Origin: Cryobacterium adonitolivorans
GTDB lineage: Bacteria; Actinomycetota; Actinomycetes; Actinomycetales; Microbacteriaceae
Reading direction: 5' to 3'
Assembly (NCBI RefSeq): GCF_004402695.1
Contig: NZ_SOFL01000012.1
Coordinates: 1-64,000, forward strand
Length of the DNA stretch: 64,000 bases
Numbering within the stretch: the first letter of the stretch is position 1; every line of letters begins with the position of its first letter. The translations under genes were made by a program, and so were the position numbers. Shown here in pieces: positions 40,099-47,937 of this stretch. The notes below the pieces were generated by a model. That model was not told where the DNA came from and ran no database searches. It saw nothing but the letters and a program-made list of their open reading frames with translations.

Positions 40099-40888
40099 CT
40101 ATCCACGCGGCCCGGCGACAGCGGGAACACTCCGGGCTGCCGGGTGATCCTCAGGCTCGCCGTCGATCACCCTCACGAGCACCTTCGCGATGCGGCTGCG
40201 CACGATGTGATCGTTGGCCTCCACCCGGTGGGTGGTGACGTGCCGCATCCGCTCCACCACGCGCAGGCTGCCCGGTGCCACGAAGGCGCCCAGCGCCCCG
40301 TAGATCAGGTCGACGGGGATGCCCAGGCTGGCGATGTCGCTCACCATCGTCTGCGATTCGATGCAGTGCTCGAGCGACTTCACGAACGGGGTCCAGGTGT
40401 CTTCGGTCAGTTCCAGGATGCCTTTGGGCAGCAGCCGGCCGAGCACCGCCGCGTTGGCGAGGGTGAAGTCCTTGTTCGACCGCAGGAATTCGTAGGCGCG
40501 CAGGTACGTGGTGACCCTGGCGCGGCGCTCGCCGCGACCATCCGTGCGCTGAACCTGCGGGAGCCCTTCGTGCTGGTGGGGCATTCGCTCGGCAGCCTGA
40601 TCGCCACCCGGTACGCCGCCGAACACCGCTGACATGGTCGTCGAGGGTGTACTCGCAGTCCGGCGGCGCCGGACTGGCGCCGTGGCCGAGGATGTCCACG
40701 GCGATGACCCGGTGCCCTGGTGCCAGCAACGGCACAACCTTCCGAAAGGTCACCGCGGTCGAGGCAATGCCGTGCACCAGGATCACGACGGGTCCGGTGC
40801 CGGTGTCGGTCTGGACGAACAGTTGCGGAGCGCGGCGCCGACGGAGGGCCTCCGTCAGCGCCGCCCAGCGTCCGCGGCCCGCGGCCAC
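40099..40888 (-). pseudogene. alpha/beta hydrolase gene broken by an internal inversion
   Basis: From 40888 the minus strand reads a hydrolase N-terminus (VVILVHGIASTAVTFRKVVP...VDILGHGASPAPPDCEYTLDDHVS) down to about 40631. From about 40519 to 40099, in a frame shifted by one, it reads the cap and C-terminal half (TYLRAYEFLRSNKDFTLANAA...TPFVKSLEHCIESQ...VDLIYGALGAFVAPGSL). The missing middle, with the nucleophile elbow V-G-H-S-L-G, is present between them on the opposite strand. A further gap of about 30 residues follows the elbow, and the usual catalytic Asp in Y-G-x-L-D is Gly. The gene cannot make an active enzyme. Confidence 0.8.
40520..40629 (+). other. inverted segment encoding the nucleophile elbow of the hydrolase
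   Basis: Read on the plus strand this piece encodes AALAATIRALNLREPFVLVG and then HSLGSLIATRYAAEHR, which continues the minus-strand hydrolase if flipped. The segment ends are weak inverted repeats: GCGGCGCTC at the left against GCGGTGTTC in the complement of the right end. Exact breakpoints are ambiguous by a few bases because of GCGC/CCGC repeats. Confidence 0.75.
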
Positions 40889-47750: not shown

Positions 47751-47846
47751 CCCGATGCCTGGTCTTTCCGCTCGCGTGTCGCTGACCGTCACGGTAGCAA
47801 CGACGTGCGACATCGGCACCGATCCCCCGGGGCGGGCGCGCGTTCG

Positions 47847-47897
47847 TTTGCGGACTTCCCGCCTTCAATTCCGAAACCAAGGCGGGAAGTCCGTAAA
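47847..47897. terminator. long hairpin downstream of the ABC1 kinase gene
   Basis: CGGACTTCCCGCCTT (47851-47865) and AAGGCGGGAAGTCCG (47879-47893) pair perfectly. Three further pairs on each side extend the stem to 19 bp with one mismatch. The loop is 13 nt. It lies 41 bp past the kinase stop on the minus strand. Confidence 0.78.
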
Positions 47898-47937
47898 TGA
47901 GTGAATGCAGCCCGGTGCGTGGCGGCCGCCGCGCGGT

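Follow-up and report, generated by a model that had tools for sequence, protein, structure and literature searches.

Ten inversions within yeast coding sequences, with spacers of 2 to 5 bp between the repeat arms, have been explained by two template switches, and nine of the ten lie between arms that were already perfect (excerpted text of PMC8604942, which refers to Lovett 2017 for coverage of bacteria). In the comparison of human and chimpanzee, 59 microinversions of 17 to 33 nt have been described, all with inverted repeats, perfect or imperfect, on both sides; microhomology-mediated break-induced replication has been proposed as the repair route, and template switching is known to perfect imperfect repeats (excerpted text of PMC8755829). 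Intragenic invertons, in which a recombinase flips a segment between inverted repeats, have been reported in bacteria (Chanin et al. 2024, as cited in the excerpted text of PMC11868660).

Here we describe an event of this known kind, one more and longer case, in the actinobacterium Cryobacterium adonitolivorans. As in the yeast inversions, a coding segment is inverted between short inverted repeats, and as in the human-chimpanzee set, the inversion is in place and flanked by inverted repeats. Insofar as the excerpted texts of PMC8604942 and PMC8755829 describe their cases, the Cryobacterium event differs from the yeast inversions in its length of about 110 bp, its imperfect arms, and a 95-bp deletion and from the human-chimpanzee set, which is mostly clean, in being longer, bacterial, and accompanied by a deletion. 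It shares with intragenic invertons and other phase variation an in-gene inversion with inverted repeats at its ends; unlike them, it has lost sequence irreversibly and offers no single reading frame in either orientation. A clean, recent in-gene microinversion with an intact counterpart in close relatives allows the breakpoints and their microhomology to be read to the base. Beyond this example, and a caution on how such inversions are interpreted, its importance is small.

The affected gene encodes an alpha/beta hydrolase and lies in the window, the 64,000-nucleotide stretch of DNA analyzed here, where it is split into three parts (Table 1). The N- and C-terminal parts are encoded on the minus strand and the intervening segment, AALAATIRALNLREPFVLVGHSLGSLIATRYAAEHR, on the plus strand; in relatives, all three form one collinear frame. 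A sequence-only reading of this DNA had recognized the nucleophile segment as inverted in place, with coordinates that are right within one or two bases, and had overlooked the 95-bp deletion beside the flipped piece. The edges of the inverted segment can be placed to within 1 nt at 40630/40631 and 4 nt at 40521-40524, and the start codon of the N-terminal part is uncertain, with the GTG at 40888 taken from the open reading frame listing. The N-terminal part matches Pfam family Abhydrolase_1 (5.2e-11, positions 40646 to 40888), while a Pfam search with the C-terminal part alone returned no family match. The intact C. zongtaii protein is a good match to Pfam Abhydrolase_1/6 (PF00561 Abhydrolase_1/PF12697); 20 NCBIfam models also match it, none of which passes its own cut-off. 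Of the 60 best sequence relatives with a solved structure, nearly all are haloalkane dehalogenases or constructs derived from one. The catalytic triad residues, assigned here by family motif, do not share one frame in the window, where the opposite strand encodes GHSLG and Gly occupies the position of the acid. Compared with an intact alpha/beta hydrolase, the window copy has lost some 31 residues and the acid Asp, and its coding strand carries no nucleophile segment. No other close copy exists in the genome: the 11 matches found comprise the three pieces of this locus and eight sequences at 30 to 46% identity.

Table 1. Positions in the window of the hydrolase locus parts, breakpoint features, and substitutions specific to the window
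Feature	Position	Strand	Remarks
Probable alpha/beta hydrolase pseudogene, N-terminal part	40631..40888	-	Open up to DDHV; ends ..LVHGIASTAVTFRKVVPLLAPGHRVIAVDILGHGASPAPPDCEYTLDDHV
Inverted segment	40521..40630	+	Includes GHSLG; 36 codons at 40522-40629 read AALAATIRALNLREPFVLVGHSLGSLIATRYAAEHR
C-terminal part of the probable pseudogene	40099..40521	-	Begins ARVTTYLRAYEFLRSNKDFTL.., restarts at ARVTTYL; open, in a frame different from that of the N-terminal part
Junction with CGCG microhomology	40520..40525		Site of the 95-bp loss relative to L003-L006
Imperfect inverted repeat, left arm	40522..40534		Just inside one breakpoint
Imperfect inverted repeat, right arm	40617..40629		Just inside the other breakpoint
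Predicted catalytic acid codon	40288..40290	-	Asp in 54 of 54 loci (54-locus set), Gly here
Second window-private residue change, A to T	40507..40509	-	4 codons past the junction
Synonymous Ser change, window-private	40673-40675	-	TCG or TCA in L003-L006, AGT here; perfects a 9-bp hairpin

A DNA search of the genus returned a match in at least 55 of 57 genomes, with the C. adonitolivorans genome itself included; among the matches listed, two genomes (G043 and G046) have none, and a third (G055) has only a weak one (4.8e-5). We aligned the locus with 83 relative loci (L003-L085), which are overlapping sets of 29 and 54 loci and not 83 independent genomes; handles used below include those of C. 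zongtaii TMN-42 (G056/L032), Cryobacterium sp. N22 (G035/L034), and C. lactosi Sr59 (G017/L033). This comparison, which the sequence-only reading had proposed as a check, recovered the uninverted gene: the middle piece and the C-terminal part are collinear in 82 of the 83 loci and inverted in none. In the one remaining locus (L080), the middle piece has no nucleotide match, yet GHSLG is in frame. Within the 54-locus set, 53 loci carry a single open frame with the G-x-S-x-G motif, and in 53 the nucleophile elbow, the acid, and the His of the predicted triad lie in one frame. The existence of an intact protein family lacking the G-H-S-L-G segment, which had been named as grounds for abandoning the inversion, is rejected by these alignments, in which the motif lies in the coding frame in 53 of 54 loci and, in the other (L041), in the same frame before a stop. 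Relatives thus carry an intact, collinear ortholog of the gene in which a piece is inverted here, and in the window the coding frame is destroyed.

The inversion was accompanied by a loss of sequence. The distance from the ACGACCA motif to the C-terminal part is 234 bp in each of L003, L004, L005, and L006 and 139 bp in the window (net, -95 bp), and the missing 95 bp, present in each of these four loci, lies directly 3' of the flipped piece. In C. zongtaii, the lost stretch is the region of WYTRPGLRVSRLVLVGPPIYLSPADIGDPWVR; it spans about 31 codons and includes RLVLVGPPIYL, probably a core strand of the fold. Several three-piece fits to C. zongtaii tie for best; they follow the left flank to GT or GTC, continue with the reverse complement of 106 to 111 bp, and resume in the right flank 91 to 96 bp past the right end of the flipped piece, leaving microhomology of 1 nt at the left junction and 4 nt (CGCG) at the right. 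As 95 is not a multiple of three, the flanks are in different frames, and since a flip preserves length, the loss is beyond repair by flipping. The expectation that flipping the segment would join DDHVS through to the cap domain accordingly fails in the reading frame: when the segment was flipped in silico with all ends in the ranges 40505-40539 and 40612-40649, none of the 1,330 boundary pairs gave one frame containing the N-terminal motif, GHSLG, and the C-terminal motif. A product without the nucleophile segment and some 31 further residues would be expected to be inactive.

Judged from these alignments, the locus very probably records a real, one-time inactivating microinversion with deletion, which would make the gene a recent pseudogene; this confidence covers the inactivating event and not the choice of mechanism. 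A one-time microinversion, one of two possibilities raised by the sequence-only reading, agrees with the occurrence of the event, together with its deletion, in this genome only. The mutated Asp that was thought to favor a dead gene is likewise borne out, as a conserved acid Asp has been lost. Relative to L003-L006, there are nine window-private sites. Two of them alter the protein (A to T, and Asp to Gly at the acid position), and two substitutions private to the window fall inside the flipped piece. Over 645 aligned coding bases, the ratio of synonymous to nonsynonymous differences is 29:6 between the window and L003 and 30:6 between the window and L004, compared with 30:6 between L003 and L004; against the more distant L005 and L006, the same alignment gives 41:9 and 48:11. 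Substitution counts like those of an intact pair indicate ordinary constraint until recently and, hence, recent damage.

We next consider how the inversion arose. The short imperfect inverted repeats described earlier at its ends are real: the arms, GCGGCGCTCGCCG and GCGGTGCTCGGCG, occur in close relatives whose gene is intact and match at 11 of 13 positions in C. zongtaii and at 10 of 13 in the window. Arms of this kind would seldom coincide with the breakpoints by chance. Among random position pairs 100 to 120 bp apart on the same contig (C35), a match of 11/13 occurs at a frequency of 7.5e-5 and one of 10/13 at 5.5e-4 in a single register, and 11/13 occurs at 0.0019 when both arms are allowed a shift of 3. 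Template switching or break repair at these preexisting short imperfect inverted repeats is the likely origin of the event. During replication or repair across this GC-rich, hairpin-prone stretch, a polymerase may have left its template close to one repeat arm and read some 110 bases in reverse from the other strand; its return to the first template, at CGCG, would have overshot by about 95 bases. The presence of repeat arms at both edges, the 1-nt and 4-nt microhomology, the CGCG joint, and the deletion fit template switching or microhomology-mediated replication. Counting against template switching are the 1-nt left joint, the arms, which were swapped whole and are still imperfect rather than homogenized, and the unremarkable folding of the ancestral strand. 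A stable ancestral hairpin over the whole segment was considered and is not supported: the folding z is 0.35, and the minimum-energy form does not pair one arm with the other.

Breakage followed by end joining, in which two double-strand breaks about 110 bp apart, with about 95 bp trimmed off one end, were religated in inverted orientation by Ku and LigD, is a serious rival, because the genome encodes matches to Ku (contig C27, 44526 to 45062) and to LigD_N (C27, 46255 to 46527), about 1.2 kb apart, and nonhomologous end joining is therefore probably available. This route fits the 1-nt and 4-nt microhomology, the movement of whole arms without homogenization, and the loss at one end; it offers no account of the inverted-repeat arms found at both ends (frequency, 7.5e-5 to 0.0019). 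We assign end joining a substantial minority share of the mechanism, a share that overlaps with our confidence in the inactivating event itself. Template switching has somewhat better odds than end joining, and both give the same verdict on the gene.

A more specific form of template switching would unite the inversion, the 95-bp loss, and the Ser-codon change listed in Table 1, which perfects a hairpin, in a single burst of switching at hairpins. If this were true, the locus would record a bacterial template-switch inversion of more than 100 bp together with its ancestral sequence. In C. zongtaii and Cryobacterium sp. N22, the left breakpoint is the site of a perfect 9-bp hairpin with a 2-nt loop, the 20-mer being present in only 2 of 54 loci; hairpins with 9-bp arms and loops of up to 8 nt number 56 in the 163.5-kb contig. 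The Ser-codon change, 43 bp from the inversion, is possibly a faint template-switch footprint; both it and the left-breakpoint hairpin were spotted post hoc. Where G056 and G038 both align (38,394 bases), private runs of three bases occur 6 times and runs of two 40 times, and two of the six three-base runs also lie in 10-bp arms. By the same count, the local Ser change scores as a two-base run, since G056 and G038 differ at its third base. Such changes are too common on the contig to decide the matter, and we rejected this one as proof of template switching. As clustered private changes are not rare, they lower the probability of a single burst, which we consider unlikely.

An assembly or library chimera, in which the strain's own gene is intact and both the inversion and the deletion were made in the draft assembly, appears improbable. 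The draft state of the assembly (58 contigs, 3.67 Mb) and the still constrained look of the remainder of the gene speak for it; against this, the locus is internal to a contig of 163,548 bp, and the second lesion (Asp to Gly) and the two private substitutions within the flipped piece fit genuine genomic sequence. A scan for collinear microinversions also argues against a chimera: it found only the hydrolase inversion and one palindrome in the alignment of C35 to G038 (142,739 bases) and only the hydrolase inversion in that to G056 (41,349 bases). The additional candidate, at positions 47837 to 47915 of the window, is an opposite-orientation match to G038 (75% over 79 bp) in an intergenic-looking stretch. 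It holds a long palindrome, GGACTTCCCGCCTT ... AAGGCGGGAAGTCC, whose symmetry, as of a terminator-like hairpin, probably accounts for the inverted match, and we rejected it as a second microinversion.

A reversible switch, the other possibility raised from the sequence, in which a recombinase would turn the hydrolase on and off as an intragenic inverton, has the inverted repeats at both ends in its favor, together with recombinase-family matches on other contigs (eight to Resolvase, seven of them above the cut-off, and four to Phage_integrase), from which a distant enzyme could act in trans; we regard it as almost certainly wrong, given the net loss of 95 bp and some 31 residues, flanks that are out of frame either way with none of the 1,330 flips restoring one frame, arms that match at only 10 of 13 positions in the window, a predicted catalytic Asp that is lost, the absence of inversion in all 83 relative loci, and a search of C35 for Resolvase and Phage_integrase that returned no match to either family. 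A short-repeat inversion within a bacterial gene is by itself no evidence of a switch; net length change and reading frame, each compared with relatives, settle that question.

Two further observations concern the gene and its surroundings in relatives. The exception among the 54 loci, L041 (Cryobacterium sp. Y57), has a premature stop between the GHSLG segment and the C-terminal part, with the motif in frame upstream; this independent stop suggests that at least two lineages can do without the gene. In C. zongtaii (L032), as in the window, the hydrolase is followed directly by the reductase frame; Cryobacterium sp. N22 has an additional open frame of 281 amino acids (L003, positions 1871 to 2716) that separates the hydrolase from the aldo/keto reductase region.
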